In this document: positions 318 through 36,029 of the stretch, piece by piece
Position numbering within the stretch: position 1 is the stretch's first letter
How the letters are laid out: each line of letters starts with the position of its first letter
Source of the DNA: Antedon mediterranea
Lineage: Eukaryota; Echinodermata; Crinoidea; Comatulida; Antedonidae
NCBI RefSeq assembly: GCF_964355755.1
Contig: NC_092670.1
Coordinates: 2,319,001-2,383,000 of the forward strand
Direction: 5' to 3'
Length of the DNA: 64,000 bases
Translations under genes and position numbers: made by a program
Notes under the pieces: model-generated
What the model saw: the letters and a program-made list of their open reading frames with translations, nothing else
Databases searched by the model: none
What the model was told of the DNA's origin: nothing

Positions 318-2514
318 CTATATTTTATATCCTGAAACCGCATTTAGGATGTATGGATCCGAAGTATATTTTTTCCACCTATGTATATATGACCTGAGTC
401 GACCTCCTACTATGTCATCAAGGTTATCATGTTTGTTGACCTTATTGTTAGGAGAAATACTTCTATTATCAATCGACTCATACCTCTTCGGCTGTTGTTT
501 TAGGTCCTTTTTCCCCTGATAAAATTTGGTCTGGTTGTAGTTGTTTGTTGACCATTTGTGTCGCCGGGTTTGACCTAAAAAAGGTTTGCCATTTCTATTG
601 TATGGCTGGTATCTGTAGTTGTTGGACCTGGTCTTTGGTTGGTACGACTTAAAATTAAATAAGCCTGCCGTAGCCTTCCTTTCCTCATCCAGTTTTTTAA
701 CTGTAGTACTCAGGTCACCAAATAAATACTCTGCAGGCTTAATGCTGGGTTTACATAAATGAGTATATTTGGCATTTATTTCCGGTTTCAACATCTCCTT
801 ACGAAGTGCAAGTAACTCGAAGTTCGCATTGGCAAGTAGGCCGATTGTGTCCTGTGCTATCTCCGATGACTCATTTCCATCAACTAATTTAGCAAGGGCG
901 GTAATTCCCTTTATCAAAGGTTTTTGTACCTTTTGAAATTTTAGATCGTTAGACCGTGCCCTTGGTGTAATGGAATCCCAAATAGTTGGATTGACCTTTG
1001 GCACCATTAGGGCCTCTAGATTTTCCGGTATAGGATAGCTTTTGATCAGCTCGGTCATTACACTCTCACTCATATGCGAGTGCAATAAGTATGTTAGCGT
1101 GTACAGCCAACTCTTGGCTGACTGCTGGTGCCAATTCGTTAGAAACAGCAAATCTTGCTGCAAAACCCGGAGGAAGGGGGCCTTTGACCTTACTATTACT
1201 ATTAGTGGCTGGCCGCTCAGGATTTTCATCCTTCTTGGATAGTTGTGTACTACCTGTTACTTCCCCCTCCTCCAGGTCAGACACATCACGTTCGTACTGA
1301 TGATGCCTATCGTAAATGTTACTCGTGAGGCTAACCACCGAGCTACTGTCATCATATTCATTGTTGTGACATTGTGATGACATTTGTGTCATCAACTGAG
1401 ATAAAAGGTCGTGCGTTGACTCATTTATTTGTTGAGCAGCCTTCGTCTCTTTAACCTGCTGCTCAACCAACCGCTCAAGGTTTTCAACCCTAGCCTCATA
1501 GTTCAGGCCTACTCCGACCTGCTGATTAGGCTGCAGCACGTTAGTGCATGATGGCCCGGCGGCGATTTTTTTTTTTCGTACATAAGTTGGGGACCCCTCA
1601 TGAAACGTCACAAAATAAACATGAATAATTCATCAGTTAAATTTGTTGTTCCGTGTGCACCAAAGCGTATATAGCAACAAGAAGTGATTTACACAACTGC
1701 GATACGATACTTTCTACACTTAGGCCTAGGATTCACGTGATTGCCTTCGCGCACTCTTCTTCACACAAAATGTGTCGAGTCGAGGCTAATCGACAACTAG
1801 GCAAGACATTAAACTAAGTAGTAATTCATTGGTCATAGCCCAAAGAAAGCTTAGACCCACAAGAATAAAGAATGTGTATAACTTGTGTACTGTATTTTTT
1901 TAATTCTGCTATTTTATTATCAAACAATATGCATGTACTCAAAGGAACTTTAAAAATGCGCGTATATGAACACATGAGATGGGAAGTTTAGACGCACGAG
2001 AAAAAAAAATGTATTTTTGTGTAATGTTTATTGTTTAATTTTGCTGACTTGTTACTCGGATTGTGTCATACCTAACACACACACGTCACACACACCCACA
2101 CAGCTAATACTAGAATAGACATGGGTTTAGAGACTAATTAGGCCTAATAGTATTAATAGAAACTATAATTTTAACCCGTAATTCTTTAGTAATAAATTAT
2201 ATTAAAAACACCATAAACCATGGAGTAAATAAACTAAAGGCTGATTATTTCGACAATCCACACAAAACGCCGCTATTCTTCTATGAAATTGCACGCCGCA
2301 ACAACAGCGGAGATAGGCCTAGAATCGTACCGCACTTGTGTAATCGTTTCTTGTTGCTATACGCTTGGGTGCACACGGAACAAGAAAATGTAACTGATGA
2401 ATTATTCATGTTTATTTTGTGACGTTTCATGAGGGGGTCCCCAACTTATGTACGAAAAAAAAAATCGCCGCCCGCTGGCCATATTGCGCAATATCCGGGA
2501 CGGCCGCTGGCCAT
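318..2514 (-). pseudogene. DIRS gag-like gene, broken
   Basis: Likely start at 2514 (ATGGCCAGC). The coding sequence is split by the inserted MITE (1557-2475), then runs from 1556 to about 1080, shifts frame, and continues from about 1090 to the TAG at 318. The ATG-initiated 181-residue ORF ending at 1611 starts inside the inserted repeat, so its first 18 or so residues are not gag. Confidence 0.65.
1557..2475. mobile_element. 919-bp inverted-repeat MITE inside DIRS gag
   Basis: Arms of about 165 bp: GGCGGCGATTTTTTTTT near 1558 and its complement ending at 2472, both containing GTACATAAGTTGGGGACCCC and CATGAATAATTCAT. A 5-bp direct repeat, TGGCC, flanks it (1552-1556 and 2476-2480). No coding capacity. 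Removing it re-joins the gag reading frame. Confidence 0.75.
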
Positions 2515-17133: not shown

Positions 17134-17301
17134 CTGTGTTGGAGGCTTCACATCCCAATCTTCTTTGTTTTCTACTTCAATGTCCATATCAGTGTGCAAC
17201 AAATCTATATATTTGGGAATTTGTATAGGTATTTCCCCAAATAAGTGACTCTCTCTGAATACCTCCTGAAAGTAATGTATAGAAGGAAATCTAGATATAG
17301 T
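17134..17301 (-). CDS. Possible alternative or following exon of gene A
   Basis: A 168-nt open segment between a TTGTCTTCCAG acceptor and a GTATGA donor. It encodes SIHYFQEVFRESHLFGEIPI and an acidic tail (DMDIEVENKEDWDVKPPTQ). The FQEVF stretch looks like the continuation of UPA. However, the upstream UPA exon reaches a stop before any GT donor, so the join is unresolved. It could be an alternative C-terminus, a remnant after a frameshift, or part of a longer gene continuing below 17134, where I find no further exon. Confidence 0.4.
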
Positions 17302-17357: not shown

Positions 17358-18312
17358 TTAAAAATAAAATGATGTAAAAAAGCTAATATTCTGCAACCCA
17401 AGGGAGTTTGAAGGGTGGAAATCACTTTTCCAAGCTATAGAGACCATGCCAGGCTGTAGGCAGATTTCATCTACATCATCTAATTTTTTTGGATGCCACT
17501 TGCAGTATTTTTTTTCAATTTGTGCCCTTCTGGAAGAAGAGAGAGTCTGTAACAATGCTGGCTATAGGCTTTTATTGTAGGACAGTCAACTTACATTTAA
17601 AAGTAGATACATTTTTTTTAAAGTATAGTAGGTTTGACATTGATTTTCATGACTGAAGCAAATACTCTATTCATTGGGTGGTGACATATTATACAAATTT
17701 TCAATTGTATTATGTATTGAATTACAATCAAAATAATATACAGTATGACTTTTACAATAAACAAACAATAAATTACCTTTTCTCTATCAGTGTCCCAAGT
17801 TCTTACTCGAAGTTGATACTTGTTAATCAATACCTTTCCAAACACACCTAGCCTTGCTGTTTTTTTACAAGCACCTCTATTTGTTATTGTAGGCCTACCA
17901 GTAAGACCATATTTAGAAAAATGTTTTGAATGTACACAACACTGTCCATTGTTTAAAGAAAAGGTTATGTCATCATCTTCATTACTGTCCAGTTTTATTC
18001 TTCTCCATTCACCTTGACACGTTGTAACAAGTAAAGTGAATTCCCAACACTCTTCATCTACAGCATTATGTGGAAATGACAGCAAGCAGTGGTTTCTAAA
18101 GACTGTGCCTGGTGGTCCACATCTAACAACAGGTGAAAGTATTGTTTCAAGAGAATCTGATAACAAATCACTAGGGAATGAGGTATTTTCTAGTGAGACT
18201 TTAACATTCTTTCCTTCTTCAATTGCTCCAGGATTTATCACCAACTTTGTGTCTTTATCCTTAAGATAGAGAGTTTCGCCTTTGGAGTCCACAATTAACT
18301 CCACAATTTGGT
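17358..18312 (-). CDS. Gene A ZU5-UPA exons
   Basis: Exon 17777-18312 encodes a ZU5 domain: LVINPGAIEEGKNVKVSLEN, LSPVVRCGPPGTVFRNHCLL, SFPHNAVDE, and a C-terminal strand GRRTITN-like segment leading to LGVFGKVLINKYQLRVRTWD, which begins the UPA domain. Exon 17358-17546 (acceptor GTTACAG, phase 0) continues UPA with RRAQIEKKYCKWHPKKLDDV and CLQPGMVSIAWKSDF, and stops at 17358. ZU5-UPA tandems occur in UNC5, PIDD and ankyrins, where UPA can contact ZU5 or DEATH. I see no polyadenylation signal just after the stop. Confidence 0.85.
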
Positions 18313-21300
18313 CTGTGGAATCAAAATGCTTTATAAATTTAATATATGTTGTAATTATATGTGGTTTATTAATATAATAATAACACTAACACTAACAATA
18401 ATAATAATAATAATAATAATAATAATTGCCATGTATTTTTTTTTGTGTGCTGTCTTCTGTTCTATGATTTAGATGTTAAAATCTCTTAAAGGTGAAGCTT
18501 TAAAATTAGCACAGTACATTACGGAATAATTGTTAAGCAAATACACAAACATGGTAATTACACTTTTGTTATATAATTATAATTATTTTTCTTTTTCCTC
18601 ATCACCTGGTATATAATTAAAAATGTTTGTGTTTAACTCATAGTATCGCTAAAATATTTTGGCATTGAAAAGTCCATATTAATATGCACTCTAAAAGAAT
18701 AGCTTACAATACCTGGCTCTGATGCAAAAAAATGTAAACGGTTTTCGTTGTTTTTCAGTTGATTTATGGGAAGAACCTATTAAAAAATAAAATATGAACT
18801 ATAATACTAAACAAATTTTATTATCCTTAATATACTACATTTTGGAAAGCTGTCTATGAAGGTCCTTCTTCTAATTTCAGTTTCATAAATTATCAATTTG
18901 ATATGTTTGTAAAACTAAAAAAAGGAGTATGCACATATCAAAATTGGGATAGTTTCTCACAATATTTTTTAAAAGATGCTTTCACCTTCATTTTTAACAA
19001 ATCAACAAAAAATATGTAAAACAATTATTAACTTTAAAAAACTTTAAAATAATGTTATTTCAATTATAGGAATCATGCGTTATTCTATAAGTAAGGTATA
19101 CCTGCTAGTTGTATTTCATATCTTTTTTCAACAATATCTTTCTGAAACATATCAGCAAGATTGTTACTGCCATGTTGAATTAGTGCAATGCAAAATACTT
19201 CAAGTTGATTCCATTGGATATCAATATTGGTTCTCCAAAAATTCATCATTTCTTTGGTAGATGTAATTAGCTCACTTCCAAACTTTGTCACCGTTAATGA
19301 GCTAAGACCCAGATGAACACCAAACAATTTCCAGTTATGAATTTCTTCAGATACTTTTCTAATAATTTGATCATCCACGTACCCTATGATAGAAAAATTA
19401 GCTTTGACTTTGAATTATTGGCTATTCCTAAGTAAATTAACTTTTAAAATTTGCAATCCTTAGATTTTTAATGCCATAAAAAACCTACTAAATCTTACCT
19501 TCGTTATGAGATCGTGATGGTATAGCTATAAAAATAAATAAATAGATATAAATTTGTCAATCAGTATACATCTTTATAATATTACTAAAAACAATCTCAA
19601 AAACTGTATTCCAAATTTTTTTTAAATTCAACACTATTGGACCATACCAAACTAAAACTACTTACTTTCATCTTGAGATTTTAAAGTTTCTGTAACAGTA
19701 AATATATGTAAATTAATCAATAATGCAGGGTGAATCCAGTAACGTAAAGGATACTGGTACTAGAGGGTGTAATGTGGTCTGATTCCTGTAAAAGTTGGCT
19801 TGTGAGAGATCGGTCACCATTGCATAGAATGGAACACCAACTTTTCTGCGTAGAATAGACCTACTGTAGAACCGTTTTTTATTTGACTTGCAGGCCAGTT
19901 AGACAGCCTTTTTTTCCCCATTTCGAGTGGGGTTTGTCTGAAACAACTCAGATCCACCACTGATAATGTCAACACATTGTACTATGGGATACTGCAAAAT
20001 ATCAAAATATATGTGTATAACTTTAAATGCCTTGCCTTTTGGTAGCACAGCTTCCCCAAACAATTTACGGTAAAGTTTAACTTCCATTTGATTGCTTCCA
20101 CAAGGCAACACATCCTGGTCAAACTTGCGAATAAGATGCATATGAGCATTTTGAATGTTTGGACTAGATGCACACGGGATGTACATCCTTACTTCAAGAC
20201 CTCGGGCATCCTTCTGACTGAATACTTTTAACTCTTTTTGAAGGAAATGAAGAACCTAAAAAAATCCATGTATATTACTGCAGTATGTAGAAATAACACA
20301 TTAAAAAAATAAAATTTGTTATGCTAATTATTTTGGCAATTTTTTTTAAAATTCTGAACAGAAGTACTTATCACTGTCATATATTTAACTTTATTTATAA
20401 CAATCATACGAAAGCCCATTAATGCCATTTTAAGTATATGTTTTTCGAACGTAATCCGTTTTAACGAATTAGTAATTCGTTTGAACGGATTAATAATCTG
20501 TTCAAACGAATTAGTAATCCGTTCAAACGAATTGCAACATATACAACAAGTGCCATTTAAAGTATATGTTGTAATTCGTTTGAACGGATTACTAATCCGT
20601 TCAAACAAATTACTAATTTGTTCAAACGGATTACTAATTCGTTCAAACGAATTACTAATTTGTTTAAACGGATTAGTAATCCGTTCTAACGAATTACTAA
20701 TTCGTTTAACGAATTACTAATTCGTTTAAACAAATTAATAATTTGTTTAAACGGATTACTAATCTGTTTGAACAAATTAGTAATTCGTTTGAACGAATTA
20801 GTAATCCGTTTAAACAAATTATTAATTTGTTTAAACAAATTACTAATCCGTTTAAACGGATTCCTAATTCGTTTTAACAGATTATTAATCTGTTTAAACA
20901 AATTAGTAATTCGTTTGAACAGATTAGTAATCCGTTCAAACGAATTACAACATATTCTTTAAATGGCACTTGTTGTATATGTTGCAATTGGTTTGAACAG
21001 ATTACTAATTCGTTTGAACAGATTACTAATCCCTTCAAACGAATTACTAATTTGTTTAAACAGAGTATTAATCTGTTCAAACGAATTAGGAATCCGTCCA
21101 AACGGATTAGTAATTTGTTTAAACGGATTACTAATCTGTTTAAACGAATTAGTAATCCGTTTAAACAAATTATTAATTTGTTTAAACAAATTAATAATTT
21201 GTTTAAACAGATTACTAATTCGTTCAAACGGATTACTAATTCGTTCAAACGAATTACTAATTCGTTCAAACAGATTATTAATCCGTTTAAACAAATTATT

Positions 21301-24300
21301 AATTCGTTTAAACAAATTAGTAATCCGTTTAAACAAATTAGTAATCCGTTTAAACAAATTATTAATTTGTTTAAACAAATTACTAATTTGTTTAAACAGA
21401 TTACTAATTCGTTCAAACGAATTACTAATTCGTTAGAACGGATTACTAATCAGTTTAAACAAATTATTAATTCGTTTAAACAAATTAGTAATCCGTTTAA
21501 ACAAATTAGTAATTCGTTTGAACGAATTAGTAACTCGTTTGAACAAATTAGTAATCCGTTTAAACAAATTAGTAATTCGTTTGAACGGATTAGTAATCCG
21601 TTTAAACGAATTACAACTTATACTTTAAATGGCACTTGTTGTATATGTTGCAATTCGTTTGAACGGATTACTAATTCGTTTGAACAGATTATTAATCCGT
21701 TCAAACGAATTACTAATTCGTTAGAACGGATTACTAATCAGTTTAAACAAATTATTAATTCGTTTAAACAAATTAGTAATCCGTTTAAACAAATTAGTAA
21801 TTCGTTTGAACGAATTAGTAACTCGTTTGAACAAATTAGTAATCCGTTTAAACAAATTAGTAATTCGTTTGAACGGATTAGTAATCCGTTTAAACGAATT
21901 ACAACTTATACTTTAAATGGCACTTGTTGTATATGTTGCAATTCGTTTGAACGGATTACTAATTCGTTTGAACAGATTATTAATCCGTTCAAACGAATTA
22001 CTAATTCGTTAGAACGGATTACGTTCGAAAAACATATACTTAAAATGGCATTAATGGGCTTTCGTACAATCATAATAATTTTCCTTTACTGTGAGTATGT
22101 ACCCTAAGAGTCCCTTTGTGTTGTGCCAAACGGTACTCGTTTGTCTGTCCACAATGACAGTGTCTGACTTGTACACCAGGGTGGGGTAACCCCCTACTCT
22201 TCTGAAAGATGAACAGGGTTATTTATATTACTTGGATCTCCAGTTATAAGTCCTTATCCACAAAGACTTGTTCTCCCACCAGCACTATAGTTGAGGAGTG
22301 CATTGAATTTGTTGATTTTATGGCTGTGGTTTAATTGTTCCTGTATTATCACTTTCATATCTACTAGCCTACCTTCTTACAGACTTCAGGTAGTGGCTTA
22401 ATGTCGTCTTCTAGAGAACTATCAGCCTTGATGCTCTTTGTTCTGACTATTGTTGTCTGCAATATAAAATAATGAACCTTGTAGTTTGACACATTGTAAA
22501 TGGTAGTCTGTCTTGTATTTTTTTTAATGGATTGATGCTTGTTATTTCATTTGTCGGAGGTAAATAAATTTAACAGATTATAGCAATCCATACAACAGAC
22601 ATGGTCTTGATATATTATATTGTACAGATATATTTAAAATGTTTATGGGGTGAACATAGCCAAGGCAAACCTTTCATTTTTGTTTTTAATGTAGAAAATA
22701 TGTGATTAAAATTGTTTTAATGAAAGTTATTGGTTATTTTTGCTGTAGAATACTAAATTATAGGGATTAAAATTTAAACACTGATGACATGGCACTGGGC
22801 CCTTTAATTCAGCTTTTGCTACTATATATCAAGTATAAATTTTAAAAATTTACCTGTAACATACGGCAATGTTTGATGGTAGCTACATATAGAATGACCA
22901 GATGTTCAGCATCAATATTCAATTCTACATGCTCATACGATAGGCGAGGTTCAACATCTTCCATTTGAAATTTCTCAATGAATTTGGTTGCAGCACGTTG
23001 AAAGAGATCATCTGGAAGATAGCTACCAAAATCATGAAAAAGTGAAATTGCACGCTTGTCTTCAAATTGAGGCTGTGGTGGGGGTTCTGGTTTAAGACGC
23101 GAGAGAACGTAGAAAATGTGTTCATCCTTCTATAAAATGAAAAAGAATATATCTTATAGATTGATAGTTTTGTAAAGAAGATGAATTTAATACTTGAATG
23201 CATTCCTGGTTTCAATATCAATACCTTTTTACTAGCACACATTAAACCAAACTTTTCCATGAGAGACACAAAGAAGTTAAAAGTCTCATCAGAATCACAA
23301 AACTCTTTCCACAGATATCTCAACAAACCAACTTCTAAAATGCCAGTGTCCAGTCTTTGCCAAGCTTTCCACATTACTGGCTCCTATTAAAAAATAAATA
23401 AATATCAGTGTAGTTTTCAGTTAGTCAAATTATTTAGGAATATTTAATAAGGACATAAGTAAGAAGATGTTTTAGTAACTCTGAATATAATTAGGATATT
23501 GAGAATATTGATTCTTGTATTACTGTATACCTGTATATTTCATTTTACAGTTAGAATATACAGTATAAAAAATTTCACAAAATTGTTATTGTAATGATTG
23601 TACACTGTACCTATTTCCTAATAAGTATATTTTTTTTTATATTTTCATAAAAATTGTTTAAAAATAAAAATCTTACTTTTCGCTTTTTAGCATGATGCAT
23701 ACTGAATTTATATATATAGATACTAGAATAAGAATACATATTGGAGAGAGCAGTGTCAAAATATTTATTTGCTAACCATATTTTCAGGCTCTTTAACAGT
23801 AATGAATGTTTTTGACATGTCAACTAGTTTCATCAAATCTATAACTATTATATCTCTTAGTGCCTCATCATCTGGGTAGTAGAGAATCTCGCCAATGTCA
23901 TGTAAATACTCAAGCAGGAATCGCTGATTTTCTGTATCTTCACAGTCTTTTAGTAAAATGTGTACCTGTAAGAAAATAGTTTCATAATAAACATTTACAA
24001 TCTGAAATAACTCTAATGATTTTAATACCTTATTTTCATCATTTTTGTAATTAATTTCTGGATTGCATTTCACTAAATGTTCATGGAATTGTCATGATTC
24101 ATCTATTATACAGTATAAGCACTTATTAAATGTATAATATCATCAGTATATGACGATGCAACATTACAGTCAAGTCTATCCAAATACAGATCAAAATGGC
24201 AGTTAATTTTTTTTTAAAGCCAAGTAATATGAATTGTTTATAAAATACTTTGTTTTCCATATGGCAGTGATCATTTATAAAAATAATAATATTTGAATTT

Positions 24301-27300
24301 ACAGATGCATTTATTGCTTTTTTGCTTTTCAGTGTGTACCAATTTCTATATTATTATTACATCAGCATATTTTTAAAACGATTATTTTCCTGCTTGTATT
24401 TCACCTTAGAAACTTGTAAATAGATGTGCTCTTTTTTCAAGCTTTGGATTTCCTGCTGTCCTCGCAGCCATTTTATTGGCAAAGTGCGGATCATTTTCTT
24501 GGAAAATTCCAGTATATGTTTCATTATGACAGAAGCATTGCTCTGTGCAAATGGTACACTGTTTTCAATGGTAAAGATAGTTGAACACACCATAGCCGCA
24601 TATGGTTTGTCTTTTAGGGCTTGCCATATTCTTTCCTTTATCTTTGCAAGCTGTAATAAAGTGAATTATATATATCAGAGTGTATGATAAACCTTAACAG
24701 ATTGATTATCTAACATTTACTATTTCAAAATATAAAAATAAGGCTGTAAAAAGTTTAGTAAAACATTTACGGTGAACATTCTTTTTATCACCAGAACCAA
24801 TTCTTTAGGACTTTGTAATATAGATTCATTTTACCTTGCATTTCTTTTCTTCTTCAGTTCCTATAAGGCCATTTAAATGTGTACCTATCAGTAATACAGG
24901 AGGACAAGGCTGACCATTTATCTTTGCATCAGGTCTGCTGTTTGTGTATATGGAACGAATCCAAGAAAGAATAAACTCCAGATTTGTCATTCGATGTGGA
25001 TATGTTTGACCCTAAAAAATACAATAGCATCTCAATCTCTTGCCAAAGACTCAAGTTATTCATTGGTCAACTATTCTAATGTAGTAATACAGTTTTTTTA
25101 GTTTAATCTGCGAATAAACTTTTACCACATATCTTTGACAATCACACATTTGAAGCTTAGAAGCAAGTTCACCAGACGTGTCCAAGAGAGGTATTCAAAC
25201 ATTTTTCAAGAAATGAAATTAATAAAATAGTTTGTTTTATGAATTATATCATTGAGAATTCTTCTTAAAAGCTAATAGTATAAATACAGTATTGTGACCA
25301 AATTATAATTTAAAACAAACTTATTATGATGCTGCTTACAGATGTTGGATCCAAAACCTTAGCTGGGGCATCAAGATCATCACAAAGGTTGAATACTACA
25401 CAAATAACAGCAAAAGATACCATAAAGATCTGGGAGATCAATAAAACAGTGGCATTCAATGAATGGTGAATATTATACAGATTTTGACTGCTTAGAGGTT
25501 AAATATAAGATTTGACATCCCCGAGGGAATGATATTTTGTTCGAGGGAATATTTATAATTCCCGAAGCGCTAGCTGAGAGAAATATATCATTCATAATAA
25601 TCATTCCCTCGGGGTTGTCAAATCTTATATTTTACCGATATAAAAGGCGATATTTGTTATTACATAGCCAACAACAAGTTGAATATCTACTGCTGGGTCG
25701 GGTGTAGCTAGGCCTCCTTTGTAATAAGCCTGCCTAATTAGGCGTTGCATTCACCTTACCTTGCAAAGAATAATATACAGATAATTACTAATTAATGTTC
25801 CTTGGCAATAATATATTCATTAGGCCTAGGTCGTTTAAATTAACAGAAGAATTTCCATCAAAAAGCCTACATTAATAATAATAATATTATTATCAGGTAG
25901 GCAGAATAAATTATAATTCGTGTTGTTCGAGGAGCCAAATCACCGGATGTTCAGCGCGCCGCGCGTACCAGGTTACTACCGTGAGTATTAACCAATCACA
26001 AACGGTCTTTCATCACATCTAGGGAGGACTAATAACAAATGAGGGCGCTAATGTATGCATAGTTTAAATAGTTTAGTTGATTAATTTCTTCAAGCAAGTT
26101 GTGTGGCGCAACGGAAAAAACGTTGTCTTTTGATGATGTGACAAATCATGGTGAGTTCAAGTCCCAAGATGACTTTTGTTTATTTATCGCCAAACGCGAG
26201 TGTTGCCACACGAAAATTACACAGTCAATATCATCGTACTCGAGAATTTGCTGGATTTTATATGTTTAATGACAGAGACACGATAATTATGCGAAAATTA
26301 CTCAGTCAATATCATCGTGCTCGAGGATATATACGATTTATGATCCTCGCAGCGGTAGTCATGTGATGCAGTTTCAACCAATCATGTTCACGTATTTACA
26401 TAGGCTATGTAATATAAAAAAATATCTTTATTATCAATGAAATTTAAATTTTGAATTGTTAATGTAGTTTTTTTGTTTCAGTAGTTTTAATTTTTAGATT
26501 TAAGAATGTTGCGTCTATACTACTACTAAATTTATTACAGATTTGTGATAGAGATATTTGACCAATATAAAAATTATTACTTATTATTTTTTTAGTGTTG
26601 GCCTTTCCTAACTTTGTTTGTCTTATATTACAGGAGGAAGACCTGTGCAAGTAGAGCTAACCTGTTTCTCACAGAAATATGTGTTGGGAATATATGTGGA
26701 TAAACTAACTCCATGCTGGTATGACTTTCTGTCAGAATATGTCATGCAGGCATTGGGTAGAATAGTTGGTATATACCATACTTAATATTCCTGGCTGATT
26801 GATAGCTATATGCTGGTAACAATGCCAGCATCAATTCCAGCATTTTGTCTCCACTTTAGGTAATAAAATGTAACCACTTTACCCGCTGCATCACATGATA
26901 AATTGGTTGTCCTCCAAAATCTGAGATGTTCATCACAAACTTGTTGCTTGTCGTCTTGTCATCATTTCCTTCTTTCTGAAACTCAATTTCTATTAATTCT
27001 TCAATTTTTGAAGGAATCTTTGTCTGGTCATCACTTTCTTCTTTCTCAATCTTTGTCTGGTCTTCACTTCCTTCTTTCTGAAACTCAATCTGTATTAATT
27101 CTTCAATTTTTGAAGGAATCTTTGTCTGGTCATTACTTTCTTCTTTTTCAATCTCTATCTTTGAGGGAATCTTTGGCTGAAGGTTTTCTTGCTCTATATT
27201 TAAAAATGTTAAAAAATTGTACTAAATTCATTAAAATAAATTCATTAATTGACAAATAAAATATCCAATATTATGTTTCTGTATGTAATATATTATTTGA

Positions 27301-30300
27301 AGGTTTGCATGGCAAAATCAAATGTTGTTATAAAGTTTGCAGTACACCATGTATATTTAGTTCTGAAAGAACTGTTGGGTTTCTGTACATTTCGATCAGT
27401 ATACTTTGAGTGACATTCACTTCTGAGGACGATAAAAGTATATTGATCGAAACATTGAGAAACCCAACAGTTCTTTTCAGAACTATATATATGTGGTGTA
27501 CTGCAAACTTTCTGTATGTAATTTTTATAGGCCTTTTATTAAGATAATTTATTATAGGATTCTAATTATTTTATCAATGGTAATTAAAATTAATTAAGAA
27601 AAGTACATTGTCAGACAATTTAATTTTTAGAAATGAAAGTGGAAAAGGATCTACAGAATATCAACGTTTCCGATGATTTCAGGTCCTGAATTTGCTTCCC
27701 TAATGATTCTACGCGGCTTTTCCTTTCTTGATTGACAAGAAGAGTTGTGATAGTGACTTTTCAATTGCCATATATCTTGAAAGAAAACCTTATCAATTAG
27801 TAAGAGGAGAATTTGGCACATGCCTCTTAAGATTTTCCTATTTCATTGAGTTTGTTTTGAGCGCAAAGCAACATTTTTGATTACCCTCATCCATTTTGCT
27901 TTCTTTTGTTTTAGTTGATTGTGCTGGATTTTCCTTTGACTGTTCTTCTATTTTGTTTTCTTCCACATATTTCGTGGGAGCATTTTCATTGCCAAAAGCC
28001 TTTTTTACTGATGCTGTTGCACCTTCTTCTTGTATCATACTATTCTTGTTATCAGAAGCATTTTCTGTTGATGCTGCTGTTGTATTTTGTTTTTCTTTCA
28101 CTTGTTTCACCACTTCTCTGGCAACTGCTTCCTCATACATTTCAGAAGCTTCAGCATAAAAGAAGTGTAATTTGCTTTTGTATATTATTGTCATGCTTGT
28201 ATATATACACAGTATTATTTTAAGAATGTTACTATCTTTTTTAAATAGGATAAGAATGGAAAAGTCTGGGACAAGGTCTTTGCACTCAAACGCAGGATTG
28301 GCTAGCATGAATAGCTAAAGCAAAAACAAAAACAACCAATCCTGTGCCTCTCTCTCTTTGGTGCTAATTTGGTTACCAATTTTGTATTTTGCATTCTTTT
28401 TTATTCTCATGTTACTTACAAGTTTCTGGTGATTGTTCTTTCAAAATTGTTTCATTATCACCTTGAGTGTACACTGTTCTTGTTTCTGCTATACCATCAG
28501 TTACTTCATGGTTTGGATTAAAACTACAGAAAAAATTAATAAACTAAATAATGGCCATACAGTATTTTTTGTTTTATTGTTTTATTATCATTGTCTGCCT
28601 ATATTTTAACGATTAAATGTAGTGCCCCAATGCAACCAATTGGTTGCAATGGCATTTATGTCATTAGTAAATTCCCTTAAATCCGTAATAATAAAAATGG
28701 CTAAACTGAGAGGAAATTATGTTTTTAAATATGCATTTAAAAATGCATATTGAATCTAAAATTTACACAGATATATACCCCGGGATTGAAGATAGAGTTT
28801 CAACTCAAAACAATCTCATTATACTTTTCATCTCATTTTCTGTAGATTGTTTTAAACAACATTCAAATCAAATAAAAAATAACATTTATTTCCAAAATAG
28901 TGGCATCACCAATAAAGCAAATGCTTGTGTCAGGGCTGCCAATACAAAACAGACAAAAACAAACAAAATATATAAATCACATTTAAATAAATAAATGTCA
29001 AGGTTTTCTTACCGTTTCCTTAGTAAAGAGTTAATAGTAGAAGTTTTTCCTACTCCCTCTAGACCTACAAAAATAACTCTGCCCTGTTTAACTTCAGTTT
29101 TTCCTTCTTTCAGAGCTTCATTAAATGCATTAACTGCTTCTGGTCCTCGAGCCCATATCTCCACAGGTAAGTCTATATACAAATTAATTAGTATAAAAAT
29201 GAATATTTTATTTCGTTGAAGGGAGAGAATAATTTCATATAATGACCGATTGACAGATTCATTAAATTCAAAGAAAATTAGGACAGTCAGGCTTTTCTCC
29301 TCATTTAATGAATGAATACTTAATAATTAATTATTTGTTTTATTTTATTGTTATAAAGTAAATTGTTACAGTATATGAACTTTAATTTTGTGATCATCAT
29401 CATCAACTTCAACTTCATCTAGGCCAATATAAAAGGATACTACAGCTCACTATGTCGGTCGGTTGGTCGGTTGGTTGTAGGTCGATCGATAAACAATAAC
29501 TTGAGCATGTGACTGCAGCCATCTATATGGCCTTGTTATATTTAACAACACATTTAGGATTGGACATTTAGTGTTTTTACAATGAAAATAATATTCTCCA
29601 TTGAACAAATTAAAACAACAAACAAATTATAACTCAGATTTTGGCTGCACTGAATAAATTATACATGTCTACATGCTCTATATGTTTGTTTTTGGTGGTG
29701 CAAAATATGGCAAAAATATATATGTGTAATAAATGCATTGTGTTCACTGTATTGTATTGTAATATAATGTTGGGTTGTTGAGGTACTAATGAAGGACTCT
29801 GACTCGCTTGACTGTCGTAACACATATATTATTTATTCAGTATAATACTTCAGTACAATATACAACTATAAGTATAGATAAGGAACGGACGTCAATGATT
29901 GATGCTGTCAGTGAGGTGTGAAGTGTGTAGGTCTGCTGTGAGGTGTGTGCTCCGTGAGGTGGCTGTAAGGTGTGTGTTCCGTGGCGTGGTTGTAAGATGT
30001 GTGTTCCGTGGCGTGGTTGTAAGATGTGTCTGGGCCCTTCTGAAACTTGGGAGTATATTGGCTCAGTTCATTTGCATATGTCACTACGTAATATTAGAGG
30101 GTAACGATTGGTCCTAAGTTGGTCCAGGGGTGTTTAAGTGGGAGTGATTAACGGTATAATAAGGTATTTCTGTGATGGATGACACTGTCAAATCTGTACT
30201 TAAATAGTGTCGATCACTCGATGGGAAAGTCACAAAATTAAGCTAAGTGTTTTCTTTAGGGACTCTATTATAAACTAAATGGTCATTAAAACATCTGGAC

Positions 30301-33300
30301 AAACTCTCCTTCGGACTTTCTGGGTCAAGTTTGTGAACCTATTTAAATTCCGATACAAAGGTCAATTTCTTAAATATAACAGTATATCATTATATCACAT
30401 CCCTCTGTTTCCCTTTTTTTTTTTCTAATCTATTTAACATATAAAAATGGTTATAATAGTGGCATGCAAAATTAAAGTTATATAAAAGAAAAAAAACATT
30501 ATACATATATGCAAAAATTGAGTTAGCCAAAACCATTGACTCTGAAGTGTAACCTTATCACTTTCACTCTCTCTCTTCTCTCTCTTAAAAAAATGAAATT
30601 AAAAATGAATTTAGTATAAAAATTCCGGAATTTATATAAAATTTGAAACAAAAAATGTATATAAAAAAAACAAAAGTGTTCTTCAAGATCGACATAATTG
30701 TGGGTCCGTTGCTTTGGAGGCATGCTACACTCGGATTACCGAAATATAAACATCACAACGGTTGGGTTTCCCTAAAAAACATCGGTCAAGAAGTCGACTC
30801 TCGTTAATTATTTTAAATAGAAAAAAATTTATAAAGGATAAATTGAAATCAATCGGTGGGTTTATATAATAATCGATAAAAACGGAATGCACTCCACGGT
30901 ATGTCCAACATGTAGGTAGTGGTGTAAGGGATCTCATTCAAATATACCATACCGCAATTCAAGCATTGGTATTTCTTGTTGAGGGATATTTGTTGGCAAT
31001 TTTTGTGAAAAAATGTTCCGCAGCATTTGTTGATTGTACAGTCAGTATGAAAGTTTTTAATTTCGGGGTTACATTGACAAATTTGGCAGGGGGTATCTTG
31101 GTATTTATTTTCCAGGTACTGCATGTTACGAATGTGCGAATATAGTTTTTTCTTATATTTAGTTACAACATATCCAAATGGTGAGTGTTCGCTAGGTTTT
31201 AATTCGTCTTGGGGTATGATGCCTGTTTGTTGTCGGACTCTTGAAAAAAATGCTGTGCATTGTGGGGCTTTGATGTCTTTTGTAATTGCTAAGAGCAGGA
31301 GGGTCATAGAATAAATATGTTGTCTGTGAAATTCATGTGTGTTTGGTATACAAGTGGCGATGCCGTCTAGATTAATGGAAAGGTCGATTGTGGAAAAGTC
31401 AAGTAGGGCTGGTTCACTCTTATGCTTCCAAATGTAGTCTATAATGGGGGAGGACATTTTGTCGAAACAACATAAATAACTGTCAATGTGTAAAAGGGTA
31501 TTTAATTTGAGGTTAGTCAGTTGGTCTACTGGACGGATGTCGCAAAGGAATAATAAAACTCTTTTCAAGGAATCTAAAGTAAATGGCATCATTTTGGTAA
31601 TATGGAGAATTACGTTTTGTTCGCTTTGGTAAAGGATTATCTTCTTTATAAGGGCACATTCTGTGGACAGGGGCGTCATTTGAATTTTGTGTTTTAAGCA
31701 TAACTGTGTAACGTCAAGCTTTTCGGATTCCATTTTAGGGGGAAATTTGGAATTGACTAAAATTAAGATAAATAAAATTAAAATGTATTTAAAATAAACA
31801 ATATTAAACTAAATAAACGATATAAAACTCAAACAATAAAATTTCAAGTTCAACTATTATAACAATCTCACAAAAGTAAATTAACTTATAATTCGACAGT
31901 AAATACTGTATATTTGATACGCTCGTGCGACTTATTTATAGTCTGCCCATCCGGTTGTTTATATATATAGCTCGTAATTGACTCTACTCCGCCCGGGTCT
32001 TCCACCATGTAATATAATGTTGGGTTGTTGAGGTACTAATGAAGGACTCTGACTCGCTTGACTGTCGTAACACATATATTATTTATTCAGTATAATACTT
32101 CAGTACAATATACAACTATAAGTATAGATAAGGAACGGACGTCAATGATTGATGCTGTCAGTGAGGTGTGAAGTGTGTAGGTCTGCTGTGAGGTGTGTGC
32201 TCCGTGAGGTGGCTGTAAGGTGTGTGTTCCGTGGCGTGGTTGTAAGATGTGTGTTCCGTGGCGTGGTTGTAAGATGTGTCTGGGCCCTTCTGAAACTTGG
32301 GAGTATATTGGCTCAGTTCATTTGCATATGTCACTACGTAATATTAGAGGGTAACGATTGGTCCTAAGTTGGTCCAGGGGTGTTTAAGTGGGAGTGATTA
32401 ACGGTATAATAAGGTATTTCTGTGATGGATGACACTGTCAAATCTGTACTTAAATAGTGTCGATCACTCGATGGGAAAGTCACAAAATTAAGCTAAGTGT
32501 TTTCTTTAGGGACTCTATTATAAACTAAATGGTCATTAAAACATCTGGACAAACTCTCCTTCGGACTTTCTGGGTCAAGTTTGTGAACCTATTTAAATTC
32601 CGATACAAAGGTCAATTTCTTAAATATAACAGTATATCATTATATCACAGTATTATTCTTTCCTTTTTGGTAATGAATGTAAACAATTAAATTGGTCAAA
32701 AACTTAACAAAATAAAAATGCTTTACATAATTTCATTTTAGCTGTCAAATAGAAGAAAGCATGCTCCAAGTACAACACTCATAGATCCACCACAGAGGGA
32801 CACATTTCTTTAAAATATTGAAATTCTTTCAAATATTGGATTGTATATAAGGACAGTGACTACTTGTTTTGGTCTCTATGACCAAATGTTTTTTTTTTAT
32901 TTGTTTAGTCTATGTGCATATGTTAATGTGTGATTTTGGTCAAAATAAATGTTGACTTGAAATGAAATACATCCCTTGCTCATGCCACTGCTCCTCGGAA
33001 CTGTGCTTTTCAATATAATAATATTTTTATTACAATACATTGCCTGTTAGATTTAAATTTAGTATGTCAAGTATCAACAGTCTGAAAATAATAAATATAA
33101 CATAAATAATCACAATAACTTACTATCAATATTGCTTTGCCCTGGTAATTGTAATCCTCCTCCATCGTGGAAAAACGATATGTTTCTAATTGAACACTTT
33201 TCGGAAACATGGCGGATGCTGTCAGCTGATAGATTGCAATCCATCGTAAGCGTCCTCAGCTTAGGAGACATATTGAGTAATGAACTCAGTGAAGTAACAT

Positions 33301-36029
33301 CAAGGTTGTGAAGGTTACTACCAGAGATATCGAGATGATATAATTGTAATTGAACTTGTTTGAGGGAACATTCTGAGACAAAGTCATAAAATACATCACG
33401 TGATAGATTATGAATCCAAACACCGTCACATCTATCTTGAATGCCTAAAATGTGTGCAATAACTCTTCCCTTTCGCTCAAATGCCATCTTACTACAAAAG
33501 TAACTGATACCAAAATCATCATATTGCATACAATACAATTGCATAATTAGACGTATGAAATGCCCGTCACATTGTACACCTGGACTAATGTAATCAATGA
33601 ACATTCTTATGGAGGTAGATATATCATCCAAATGATTATTTATTTCTAAATCTTTACTTGTCATGTAATTTATTAATTCATTCATAACAGCATCTTTATG
33701 TTGTTTTTTAACAACGTTTAAATAACTTGGCAGATAGCAATATGTTGACAAACGATTTGTAACCCAGTGCTTCAGGAAACCACCAGCTTTATCACCAAGG
33801 AAACCAATTGCAAATTCTCTTGCTCTGTGTAAATGATCACTCTCTCGTATCACCTCCCACTCATCATCATCCAATGGTGTTAGTAATCGTCTTACATCTT
33901 CTGTATTCTCCTTACCTTCACTTTCACATAATTTGCACAAGTAAAATCCCACCAATGACTCTACTATCAACTTGTGAGGAGGCATGAAAATATTTTCAAA
34001 GTTAGATTTTGAAATTGGTGCTTCTTCATAAACAAATCCGAGTTTCACGGACATATCAACCAAATCTTTTTTCGTATGTTTATCATTCAAATCTCTCATG
34101 TTTATTGAAAGTTGATTCACTTTCAAGCGATCATACATACATTTTCCTAGCAATATCATAGCATTTACATACTTTGCTGGTGGGTTTTCAAATTTAGAAA
34201 GCTTTGCGAATTGTTCATGTTTGTTGAACTGATTTAAAATGTTACGAAATATTTCTTTAAAAAGTTCAGCTTTATCTGTAGGAAGGTTTTGGCTGTCTTG
34301 CCATAGCAAACAGATTGAACAAAGCAGCATTGGATTTTTGCACATTGAATATACGTCTTCATGTTTACGTTCTCGCCTATACCTATGCTGAGTATCGCCT
34401 ATGAAAATATCCAATTCCTTTTTTAAGGATTTTCCCAATTGTGGTTCTTCAAAATATTCGAAGTGTTTGTCAATATACTTTCCTATGCTCTCGTTGTTAA
34501 ATCCCTTAACTCTTACATGTACGTTACTCTCTTTTACAAATTCATCTATGTTTTCTGATCGTGAAGTAAGTATCACGGTACTTTCTTCTAGGTTTTTCTT
34601 TTTGAACAGACTAATTACGCTTGGATTATTAAATCTCAATTCGTCTAACCCATCTAGTAGCAACACCACTTTATCATCATGGGTTATTAGAAAATCTTGA
34701 ATTAACCGTGGGTCCTCTGGGAGATCTGTATCTAAATTAAAATCTTCCATATCAATTTGCTTTACAATTTGATCGAAAATGTTGTCATCCTTTTCTAAAT
34801 CCCTTACACTTAAAAGAAATACAATTTTACCTTCAAATAATTTAATTGATTGAGTAGCCGTAGCCCAGGTGTATGATAAATGCCTTAATATGGTAGTTTT
34901 ACCTATCCCACCCTCTCCATCTATAAGAGCTCTACATCCAGGTGTGGAGCTGATTACATCTACCACTTCTGTTAATGTTGTTGGTTTGCTTCCTTTATTC
35001 TTTTTAGCTTCTTTACGTAGTTCCATATCGGTAAACATCTGTGAAATGTCAACATTGTATCTCTCACGCATTATTGCTGGTGTAAATCTACTGGCCTGAC
35101 TGCACAGTCTCTTTTGTCTTTGAAGCAGATATTCTTCTATCTTTTCTAAATATAAAGATTTTTAGCTTGATTAAACTATATAAAGTTTTATTAATATATT
35201 ATTACATTTATTTATTATGTGGTATTTCATAAAATTGTTGAATGTTTTGCATTCCTCTAATTATTTTTATGTTTTATTTTTGTATTAATTAAAATTATCT
35301 AACTTTATTGTTATAATGGTTTTTGTCACGCAATCATAATTAAGCTTCATATAGTGAGTGTGACCCAATATAATTTATGATAGATTATGGTAATAATTTT
35401 CAGAATATGAAACTTTAATTTGAAAAATATGCTCAACAGAGGGCAGCAAACAGAAAAATATAATTATCACAAAGGATTTTTATGACAATAGAAATTAAGT
35501 TGCACTTAGTTTTAAAGTAAAAAAATAAAATAACATCCAATACTGATAAAATAGTTCAGAAACCTTATAATTGTGTACAAAGCAATTATTGTAGCAGCTT
35601 GATTGGCCGGCTTAGAAATTCAATGATTATATTGTATAATTATTGTTGCAGTTGATTTATTTTTGACAATCAGGGGATTCAATAACTGAATTATAAAATG
35701 GATCTGATTTGCATTATTATGGTAAACATTACAAGTAAACTCACCTGTTTCTGATTTAACCTCTTTGTTCATTGGTATCACTGGCTTTGAGTCTGTTTAA
35801 TAAGCAAATGACAAGAACTGAATTTTTACAATTCTACAGTACCTCAAGAAAACCAATGCTTATAAAGGCATAAATTAAGCATAAAAGTTAAGAAATATAA
35901 TTCAATAATGTATGTGCAATATAAATGATAGTTTGTGTGAATAGTACATAATGAATAGTAAATCTTATTCATCTCCAAAAATTTATTTTAAAACTTGAAA
36001 TAGTAAATTTATTTTCTCTTACCTGCCAT
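17358..36029 (-). CDS. Gene A: predicted NACHT-Roc-COR-DEATH-ZU5-UPA protein (spliced)
   Basis: Predicted multi-exon gene joined by me from splice sites: 36023-36029, 35745-35792, 33124-35145, 29013-29172, 28420-28523, 27885-28148, 26883-27193, 25340-25429, 24835-25011, 24405-24650, 23777-23965, 23225-23383, 22854-23129, 22373-22456, 20036-20255, 19666-19689, 19499-19525, 19102-19383, 17777-18312 and 17358-17546. The phases agree at every junction and the sum is 5415 nt, about 1804 residues. Order: NACHT (P-loop about residues 95-103, Walker B 178-188), short LRR-like stretch, Roc (P-loop GLEGVGKTS 729-737, DFGGQ 960-964), COR (about 1130-1450), DEATH (1470-1563), ZU5 (1564-1715), UPA (to the end). 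NACHT and Roc are both signalling NTPases; DEATH and ZU5-UPA are adaptor modules, so an intracellular sensor or scaffold role is inferred. The ATG at 36029 has an A at -3 and a G at +4 and follows an in-frame stop. The alternative is two genes, an NLR ending at 33110 and a Roco gene. Confidence 0.6.
18387..18425. repeat. (AAT)n microsatellite
   Basis: A run of about nine AAT/ATA triplets in a gene A intron. Confidence 0.8.
18713..18776 (-). CDS. Possible cassette exon between DEATH and ZU5
   Basis: A 64-nt segment with TTTTTTAATAG acceptor and GTATTG donor. Its phase fits the ZU5 exon only if it is entered in phase 0, while the DEATH exon leaves in phase 1. DEATH joined directly to ZU5 is in frame. 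This segment is therefore probably unused, alternatively spliced or decayed. Confidence 0.3.
19102..19383 (-). CDS. Gene A DEATH-domain exon
   Basis: One phase-1 exon of 282 nt. It encodes a DEATH-fold: GYVDDQIIRKVSEEIHNWKL, then FGVHLGLSSLTV, a helix with MMNFWRTN, and LEVFCIALIQHGSNNLADMF. The W and LGL positions and the late FCxALxxxG helix fit DEATH domains, which form homotypic complexes. It is about 50% similar to the first DEATH exon of gene B (56984-57289). Confidence 0.85.
19499..19689 (-). CDS. Gene A two micro-exons (24 and 27 nt)
   Basis: 19666-19689 (TGTTACAG acceptor, GTAAGT donor; encodes ETLKSQDE) and 19499-19525 (TTTATAG acceptor, GTAAGA donor; encodes about TIPSRSHNE). Both are phase 1 in and out and form a short polar hinge between the COR-side segment and DEATH. 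Gene B has micro-exons of the same two lengths at 57769-57792 and 57449-57475, which supports them as real. Confidence 0.65.
20036..23965 (-). CDS. Gene A COR domain and linker exons
   Basis: Exons 23777-23965, 23225-23383, 22854-23129, 22373-22456 and 20036-20255. The first carries the COR hallmark FLLEYLHDIGEILYYPDDEA followed by LRDIIVIDLMKLVDM. The second has LEVGLLRYLWKEF and LMEKFGLMCASKK. The third has the COR-B-like LFHDFGSYLPDDLFQRAATK. The fourth is a polar linker (TKSIKADSSLEDDIKPLPEV). The fifth (VLHFLQKELKVFSQKDARGL and onward) is a conserved segment before the DEATH region. COR mediates dimerisation and couples to Roc in Roco proteins. All five have near-identical counterparts in gene B (63903-64000, 63529-63804, 63055-63138 and 61520-61739 for the last four). 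The last exon ends at a GC donor (AAAAG|GCAAGG), where gene B has GT. The intron between the fourth and fifth exons holds the 21-bp-repeat transposon. Confidence 0.85.
20408..22065. mobile_element. 1.66-kb transposon filled with 21-bp near-palindromic repeats
   Basis: Terminal inverted repeats of about 58 bp begin ACGAAAGCCCATTAATGCCA at 20408 and end with the complement at 22065. An exact 8-bp duplication, ACAATCAT, flanks the element (20400-20407 and 22066-22073), as for hAT- or P-type transposition. Almost all the interior is 21-bp units of the form ATTAGTAATCCGTTTAAACA, with a GTTTRAAC core. It is punctuated four times by a block of about 45 bp with ACTTTAAATGGCACTTGTTG. Because 21 is divisible by 3, several frames on both strands stay open for up to 351 codons; these are not credible genes. 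It lies in a gene A intron. Confidence 0.9.
24405..29172 (-). CDS. Gene A Roc GTPase exons
   Basis: Seven exons (29013-29172, 28420-28523, 27885-28148, 26883-27193, 25340-25429, 24835-25011, 24405-24650) build a Ras-of-complex-proteins GTPase. Visible motifs are P-loop GLEGVGKTS, G3 DFGGQPIYH (the DFGGQ form typical of Roco proteins), a hydrophobic strand SFAVICVVFNLCDDLD, and LIGTHLN at the G4 position, where THxD is usual, so the G4 aspartate is replaced. Between the switch region and DFGGQ lies an insertion of about 180 residues, rich in K/E/S/T, encoded by 27885-28148 and most of 26883-27193, with repeats of a TKIPSKIEELI-like unit. The Roc domain binds GTP and controls the adjacent COR dimerisation domain in LRRK2- and MFHAS1-type proteins. 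The exon at 29172 starts in phase 1 with no ATG, so it needs an upstream exon. Confidence 0.85.
25497..25640. mobile_element. Small MITE in a Roc intron
   Basis: Inverted termini AAATATAAGATTTGACA then CCCCGAGGGAATGAT, about 33 bp per arm. No clear duplication. Lies between the exons at 25340-25429 and 26883-27193. Confidence 0.7.
26098..26165 (+). repeat. Possible tRNA-derived SINE head
   Basis: A-box-like TGGCGCAACGG and B-box-like GAGTTCAAGTCCC 39 nt downstream. The rest of the unit is not defined. Confidence 0.3.
27332..27511. mobile_element. 180-bp foldback MITE in a Roc intron
   Basis: Arms of about 75 bp starting AAAGTTTGCAGTACACCA, with a spacer of about 30 bp. They include GAACTGTTGGGTTTCT and its complement. 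No ORF. Confidence 0.75.
29758..30399 (-). repeat. LTR (3' in element orientation)
   Basis: 642 bp, TG...CA. Contains GTGTGTTCCGTGGCGTGGTT-type subrepeats of about 26 bp in tandem (29968-30020). It looks identical to 32008-32649. Confidence 0.9.
30849..31733 (-). CDS. ORF in LTR element, RING/PHD-like zinc finger protein
   Basis: 294 residues, in the same orientation as the retroelement. The N-terminal 220 residues are mostly helical-looking with no family I recognise. The C-terminus has a cysteine/histidine cluster: CQIC, then HTDCTINKCC, then HKNC, then CLNC at about residues 216-262. This C2-..-HC-CC-HC-C2 spacing suggests a RING, FANCL-like or PHD treble-clef zinc fold. If it is RING-like, ubiquitin ligase activity is possible. 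It may be a captured host gene or a divergent accessory gene. No retroviral Gag motif such as a CCHC knuckle is seen. Confidence 0.7.
   Translation of the reverse strand: MESEKLDVTQLCLKHKIQMTPLSTECALIKKIILYQSEQNVILHITKMMPFTLDSLKRVLLFLCDIRPVDQLTNLKLNTLLHIDSYLCCFDKMSSPIIDYIWKHKSEPALLDFSTIDLSINLDGIATCIPNTHEFHRQHIYSMTLLLLAITKDIKAPQCTAFFSRVRQQTGIIPQDELKPSEHSPFGYVVTKYKKKLYSHIRNMQYLENKYQDTPCQICQCNPEIKNFHTDCTINKCCGTFFHKNCQQISLNKKYQCLNCGMVYLNEIPYTTTYMLDIPWSAFRFYRLLYKPTD
32008..32649 (-). repeat. LTR (5' in element orientation)
   Basis: 642 bp, TG...CA, adjoining the primer-binding site at 31990-32007. Followed by the GTAT target duplication. Confidence 0.9.
33024..33034 (-). promoter_or_regulatory. 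Candidate polyadenylation signal after the NACHT exon
   Basis: AATAAA on the minus strand (GTAATAAAAATAT), about 80 nt after the stop at 33110. If used, the NACHT exon would end a shorter transcript of about 696 residues, an alternative to splicing into the Roc exon. Confidence 0.35.
33110..35145 (-). CDS. NACHT-domain (NLR-type) exon
   Basis: A single large exon with a good acceptor (TTTAG before 35145) and an open frame to a stop at 33110. The Walker A motif is GEGGIGKTT and the Walker B motif is VVLLLDGLDEL, which are classic NACHT signatures. An N-terminal helical segment (EKIEEYLLQRQKRL, then a conserved-looking YNVDISQMF) resembles the linker before NACHT in invertebrate NLRs. The last 90 residues (HLDISGSNLHNLDVTSLSSL and onward) look like two or three degenerate leucine-rich repeats. 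A strong donor, GTAAGT, lies at 33123, 13 nt before the stop. If it is used, the reading frame passes into the Roc exon at 29172. If it is not, the protein ends with DSKLL. A mini-intron to 33081 would also end at once (NC, then stop). NACHT ATPases oligomerise as innate-immune sensors; the ligand is unknown. Confidence 0.9.
35745..35792 (-). CDS. Gene A coding exon 2 (16 codons)
   Basis: Flanked by TTAAACAG acceptor and GTGAGT donor, phase 1 in and out. It encodes DSKPVIPMNKEVKSET, a hydrophilic linker with no recognised fold. It joins the 7-nt coding end of the upstream exon (ATGGCAG, 36029-36023) to the NACHT exon without shifting frame. Confidence 0.65.

Follow-up and report, generated by a model that had tools for sequence, protein, structure and literature searches.

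A probable fusion of a NACHT-LRR-like gene to a Roc-COR-ZU5 gene in Antedon mediterranea, within a family that appears to swap its front end

Background

Do a NACHT exon and a Roc exon that lie almost 4 kb apart on the same strand belong to a single gene? The question is raised by a locus of Antedon mediterranea (genome size 354 Mb) contained in the 64,000-nucleotide stretch analysed here, which we call the window (C1:2319001-2383000, where C1 is contig NC_092670.1). The initial annotation proposed a fusion of a NACHT ATPase to a Roc-COR GTPase, a Death domain and a ZU5-UPA module. If this is correct, two large families of NTPase switches from immunity and cell death are joined in one polypeptide, and ATP-driven assembly and GTP-driven dimer steps could be studied in one molecule. 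The family would also supply a natural set of front modules attached to a common stem, so that their individual roles could be compared directly.

Results and discussion

Gene model and reading frame

The gene model lies on the minus strand, and coordinates without a contig or locus name are those of the window. E1 (36023-36029) consists of seven nucleotides, ATGGCAG, with the start codon and a phase-1 donor. It is followed by E2 (35745-35792), a 48-nt linker exon in phase 1 at both ends; both are present in a sister copy of the locus (C1:2,688,888-2,672,294). The NACHT exon, E3 (33124-35145), has an LRR-like tail. E4 (29013-29172) carries the Roc P-loop (GLEGVGKTS) and E5 (28420-28523) continues Roc past it. 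A Lys/Glu-rich insert inside Roc occupies E6 (27885-28148), further Lys/Glu-rich repeats precede DFGGQ in E7 (26883-27193), and Roc ends in E8 and E9 (25429-25340 and 25011-24835). The COR region (22373-24650) is encoded by E10 to E14 (24650-24405, 23965-23777, 23383-23225, 23129-22854 and 22456-22373). In the intron between E14 and E15, a palindrome-like unit of 21 bp is repeated in tandem over approximately 1.6 kb (20451-22022), and this repeat is open in several frames.

For E15 (20036-20255), an end at a stop at 19899 was rejected in favour of a GC donor at 20036 after comparison with locus L023, where a GT donor aligns with it. Two short phase-1 linkers, E16 and E17 (19689-19666 and 19525-19499), lead to a Death-like exon, E18 (19102-19383). 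The linker exon E19 (18713-18776) is followed by the ZU5 exon, E20 (17777-18312), and by E21 (17134-17265), which is conserved in relatives and is the 3'-most exon found.

When E1 to E18, E20 and E21 are joined they form a single stop-free frame of 1,786 codons. The initial annotation had proposed a single frame of about 1804 codons over all its exons. E19 has 64 nt in the window, one T more than the 63 nt of its counterpart in the sister copy, and disrupts the frame unless it is skipped; it was therefore left out of the open model. The sister copy retains all 21 exons with 1,837 open codons and no stop, and its donors are GT throughout with the exception of one GC.

The proposed last exon, a UPA exon at 17561-17358, was discarded as non-coding: its frame differs among three near-identical copies as a result of 1-bp indels. 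The conserved exon that follows ZU5 is E21 instead, and the next (UPA) exon of the relatives was not found in the 17.4 kb of the window that lie downstream. This absence, the extra T in E19 and an LTR insertion in an intron (see below) are what would be expected if the window copy were in decay and the working copies were others, the sister among them. The remaining exons are nevertheless open, their splice sites are kept and E19 can be skipped in frame, and we consider decay unlikely.

Domains

Four domains of the model exceed the Pfam cut-offs: NACHT (1.4e-20), Roc (1.7e-10), COR-A (8.7e-13) and ZU5 (7.7e-16). The Death match of E18 (0.014) is below the cut-off, Pfam UPA gave no match over E18 to E21, and no final Death domain was found.

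Walker A (GEGGIGKTT) and Walker B (LLLDGLDEL) motifs can be read in the E3 translation. Its LRR-like tail shows beta-alpha repeats at residues 575-658 in a structure model (pLDDT of approximately 54-75 in this block; model mean 48) and gave no Pfam LRR match. Beyond this repeat pattern the E3 model was set aside as too uncertain at a pLDDT of 48. No N-terminal effector domain is present, since E1 and E2 together encode only 18 residues and Pfam reports no domain before NACHT. In Roc, G1 and DFGGQ are present and G4 reads THLN by eye; the GTPase G4 motif is THxD. The E18 model has six helices (pLDDT 58), and a fold search of it against the PDB returned FADD chains among its matches, none at an E value of 0.001 or better. 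The ZU5 exon contains HFS (read by eye), which we take to be the self-cleavage motif.

Elsewhere in the genome, open frames are arrayed on contig C11 (4.57-4.65, 17.55-17.60 and 19.24 Mb). Many of them are 945-993 codons long, and the match to the Roc profile is split into two pieces that lie apart.

The NACHT-Roc junction

The NACHT and Roc exons of the window are real. The sequence bears out that the former (35145-33124) ends at a GTAAGT donor in phase 1 and that the latter (29172-29013) has an AG acceptor in phase 1 and no start codon. The lack of a start codon is not peculiar to this locus, as AG and phase 1 precede the Roc exon in all 14 paralogous loci for which the boundary was printed (by eye).

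In the window, the E3-E4 intron measures 3,951 bp, most of which is an LTR element on the minus strand (32649-29758). The element is young, with a pair of identical 642-bp LTRs, and is flanked by a 4-bp target duplication, ATAC. Its internal frame has a Cys-rich cluster and matches no Pfam family above the cut-off. At 318-1629 (minus strand), a 312-codon frame and a 187-codon frame overlap and, by eye, also look like a piece of a mobile element. The corresponding intron is 972 bp in the sister copy, and 660, 264 and 263 bp at three further loci with the same arrangement.

These introns bear on whether the window might contain two adjacent genes, a NACHT gene that stops shortly after E3 (..NIDSKLL, 33110) and a Roc gene with a first exon of its own, either within the intron or more distant. 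Three of the five fused copies (window, sister and L007) do have a stop within five codons of the NACHT donor, so that an unspliced NACHT protein could be made. We also searched the introns for candidate first exons, that is, ATG exons, and took the mean of 200 shuffles as the expectation. The window intron has seven against 5.1 with the LTR element and three against 2.2 without it. The sister copy has one against 1.8, L007 none against 0.8, L003 one against 0.27 and L014 one against 0.2. The view that no separate first exon of Roc is visible thus largely holds but is unproven: candidates are about as many as the shuffles predict, and one candidate with a phase-1 donor (29508-29451) is common to the window and its sister. 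A 7-nt candidate is common to L003 and L014. Both shared candidates would suit two genes. Against two genes, introns of 263-264 bp leave scant space for a second promoter, the numbers of candidates are close to those in shuffled sequence, and four kinds of module lie upstream of Roc exons on the same strand and, among the matches listed, none of 136 on the opposite strand (see below). Two separate genes are accordingly improbable in our judgement.

A third arrangement would combine the E1-E2-E3-E4 fusion with shorter forms, NACHT alone or E2 joined directly to E4, generated by alternative splicing or starts. The joining of E2 to E4 would also be in frame because E2 and E3 are both in phase 1-1, and the stop just past the donor would yield the NACHT-only form. 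On the other hand, weak, short E2 matches also occur upstream of NACHT copies without Roc. Such a combination is a possibility that we hold tentatively, and it is compatible with the explanation that we prefer, a single fused gene.

Fused and unfused copies

The same order, NACHT exon, phase-1 donor and phase-1 Roc acceptor, is found on the same strand at no fewer than five loci on C1. Besides the window and its sister these are three: at C1:2.50 Mb there are matches to E3-E15 and E18; at C1:2.45 Mb E2-E13 are matched and about 0.7 kb of sequence beyond was covered; and at C1:3.44 Mb the NACHT and first Roc exons were read, and farther downstream the same strand has matches to the Roc part and to the Death-like exon. 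The window itself also contains the 3' part of a second Roc gene (57030-63807, minus strand), in which a Death-like exon is present and E13 and E15 are matched; outside the window, at C1:2,389,247, lies a first Roc exon.

All five fused copies have a NACHT exon that is stop-free up to the donor. Seven NACHT copies that have no match to the first Roc exon in their neighbourhood were read at the 3' end. Six of them close with a stop codon, in L018 within a repeat unit, and the end of the seventh, L017, resembles a donor. (These seven, and the 15 unfused copies in the tree described below, were picked by hand from the genome list of NACHT matches and are mostly high-ranking.) No Roc exon was found within 4.7 kb of L017. 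This counts against the use of a donor as proof of fusion and is a further point for two separate genes. Conversely, the Roc gene does not need NACHT: at ten Roc loci no NACHT was found in the 2.5-8.8 kb of upstream sequence covered.

The missing NACHT stop, the five loci in the same order, the introns of 263-264 bp and the open frame of the sister copy together support the fusion. We conclude that the window locus is very probably one gene formed from two neighbours; we infer the transcript in which E3 and E4 are spliced together, as well as the function outlined below. What stands of the order originally proposed is NACHT-Roc-COR-(Death-like)-ZU5, without UPA and without a confident Death domain.

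The NACHT exons of the fused copies are not grouped in a single clade. The five fused rows of a 20-row tree require five changes, against a mean of 4.6 for shuffled labels, and the starred branches require at least three. A single origin is therefore unsupported by this tree; the scatter fits the mosaic pattern described below.

A mosaic NACHT core

Identity between the window and its sister, taken in 100-bp steps, drops to 63-86% over 800 bp inside the NACHT exon. It is 92-100% in the preceding 1.2 kb and the following 0.7 kb, and 87-88% in the exon tail. Synonymous divergence follows the same course: dS is 0.03 for residues 1-115, 0.92 for 116-381, 0.10 for 382-600 and 0.02 for E4-E18. A stretch within the window tract (34000-34800, minus strand) is 90% identical to C4:15,744,448 and 75% to the sister copy; for the tract of the sister, a site on C3 reaches 87% identity. 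L003 and L014 give a similar picture on one side, with 67-85% identity over most of the NACHT exon and 93-100% from the exon end onward. We read this mosaic as probable ectopic gene conversion or recombination. In the zebrafish NLR-B30.2 genes, according to the parts of PMC4852459 consulted, gene conversion acts on parts of genes and the family itself was born of a fusion.

Positive selection was considered as a cause of the divergence at residues 116-381 and rejected, given the dS of 0.92 and a dN/dS of 0.21. Two other segments were not used as evidence of selection: residues 1-115, where a dN/dS of 1.07 reflects few changes, and residues 601-673 (dN 0.16, dS 0.02), a segment containing a linker that aligns poorly. 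Between window and sister, dN/dS is 0.39 for the NACHT exon and 0.59 for E4-E18.

The first Roc exon as a joint

The Roc-COR-(Death-like)-ZU5 family is large in the A. mediterranea genome, and we took a census of the modules that precede its first Roc exon. Genome searches scored the best candidates of each kind: 150 of 152 Roc exons, 150 of 179 Death, 150 of 359 DED and 66 of 594 NACHT candidates. The census used all 136 Roc first-exon matches, all 149 Death matches, 25 of 33 caspase and 40 of 90 DED matches, and 42 of 96 NACHT matches together with one place from an identity search with the window tract. The remaining matches were compared with the Roc list by eye and none was within 5 kb upstream.

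At least 27 of the 136 Roc exons have a module no more than 5 kb upstream on the same strand, 24 of these within 1.5 kb. The split, in which each count is a lower bound, is Death 17, NACHT 5, DED 4 (only one over the family cut-off) and caspase 1. The other 109 have no listed module within 5 kb. Among the matches listed, there were none upstream on the opposite strand (0/136) and none downstream (0/136); the latter is a weak control, since 5 kb downstream of the exon one is still within the Roc gene. Among the 17 Death cases, many seem to be near-copies of one another, and the events are thus fewer than the cases.

Individual loci that lack NACHT were examined at the level of the frame. Upstream of the Roc exon, Pfam identifies a caspase in L008 (1.4e-43) and a Death domain in L012 (1.7e-11), and both modules end in phase-1 donors. 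DED matches in L005 (0.00035) and L010 (3.4e-6) are under the cut-off, and the L009 frame is DED-like by eye with no Pfam DED match. L009 and L010 have candidate phase-1 donors where the module ends; in L005 a donor scan found none at the frame end. L005 has four similar frames in tandem before its Roc exon, spaced by about 1.3 kb (L005 3386-7918, reverse-complement coordinates); two were scanned and both match DED under the cut-off. The caspase-like exon (L008:614-1225, minus strand) lies 330 bp upstream of the Roc exon. It reads QASR, by eye, at the position of the active-site motif, where an active caspase has Cys (QAC motif). Eight caspase matches, this one among them, are clustered on C5 (22.03-22.14 Mb).

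Other cell-death modules occupy this joint in Roc relatives, which suggests that front ends are swapped within the family. A broader reading, to which we incline by a little, is that the Roc-COR half would be a general signalling stem whose phase-1 joint has repeatedly taken NACHT-LRR, Death, DED and inactive caspase modules, with conversion exchanging the NACHT core. The products would be germline-encoded receptors with a constant stem and a variable head and, in the NACHT case, a double NTPase switch.

Proposed origin and mechanism

The single fused gene can be described in two parts. E1-E3 would derive from a NACHT-LRR gene in which the stop of the last exon was replaced by a phase-1 splice donor. 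E4 onward would be a Roc-COR-(Death-like)-ZU5 gene, with a first Roc exon to which varied front modules can be joined in phase 1.

How the protein might work is more speculative, and we put forward the following scheme as something short of an even prospect. The NACHT-LRR part would sense a ligand and form a nucleotide-bound, ATP-driven oligomer. This would cluster the Roc-COR part, which would act as a GTP-dependent dimer switch, and the Death-like and ZU5 part, with its HFS self-cleavage motif, would then recruit or release cell-death or NF-kB signalling. Gene conversion would renew the NACHT core and leave the signalling half unchanged.

Comparison with known systems

The window gene resembles the NLR (NACHT-LRR) families of fish and invertebrates in its NACHT domain with Walker motifs, its putatively LRR-like tail and its many copies. 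It differs in that its C-terminal partner is a second NTPase, Roc-COR, and that no Death, CARD or Pyrin domain precedes NACHT.

Roco proteins include LRRK, DAPK and MASL1 and, in invertebrates, TIR-Roco and LRR-Roc-COR-TIR proteins. The Roc-COR tandem with a Death-like part is common to them and the window gene. Here, however, the N-terminus is NACHT instead of LRR, ankyrin or kinase, and a long Lys/Glu-rich insert separates the P-loop from DFGGQ. PIDD1 and UNC5CL have the order ZU5-UPA-Death. They share with the window gene a ZU5 domain with an HFS motif, whereas UPA was undetected and a final Death domain was not found in the window gene.

Unusual partners of Roc-COR are described in Aplysia (PMC9334734) and in sea anemones (PMC5094078), in the portions of these papers seen. 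The brown algal ROCO genes (PMC11378527) are proposed immune receptors that undergo exon shuffling and, as here, have changeable exons on Roc-COR; in the family of the window it is whole NACHT, Death, DED and caspase-like modules that stand at the joint. In the part consulted, PMC7159879 treats Roc-COR and NACHT as separate domains. No NACHT-Roc protein was found in the literature covered, and an earlier report may exist in the table of amphioxus NACHT partners (PMC2575513, Additional file 4). The association of Roc-COR with unusual partners is thus known already, and NACHT as that partner appears to be new.
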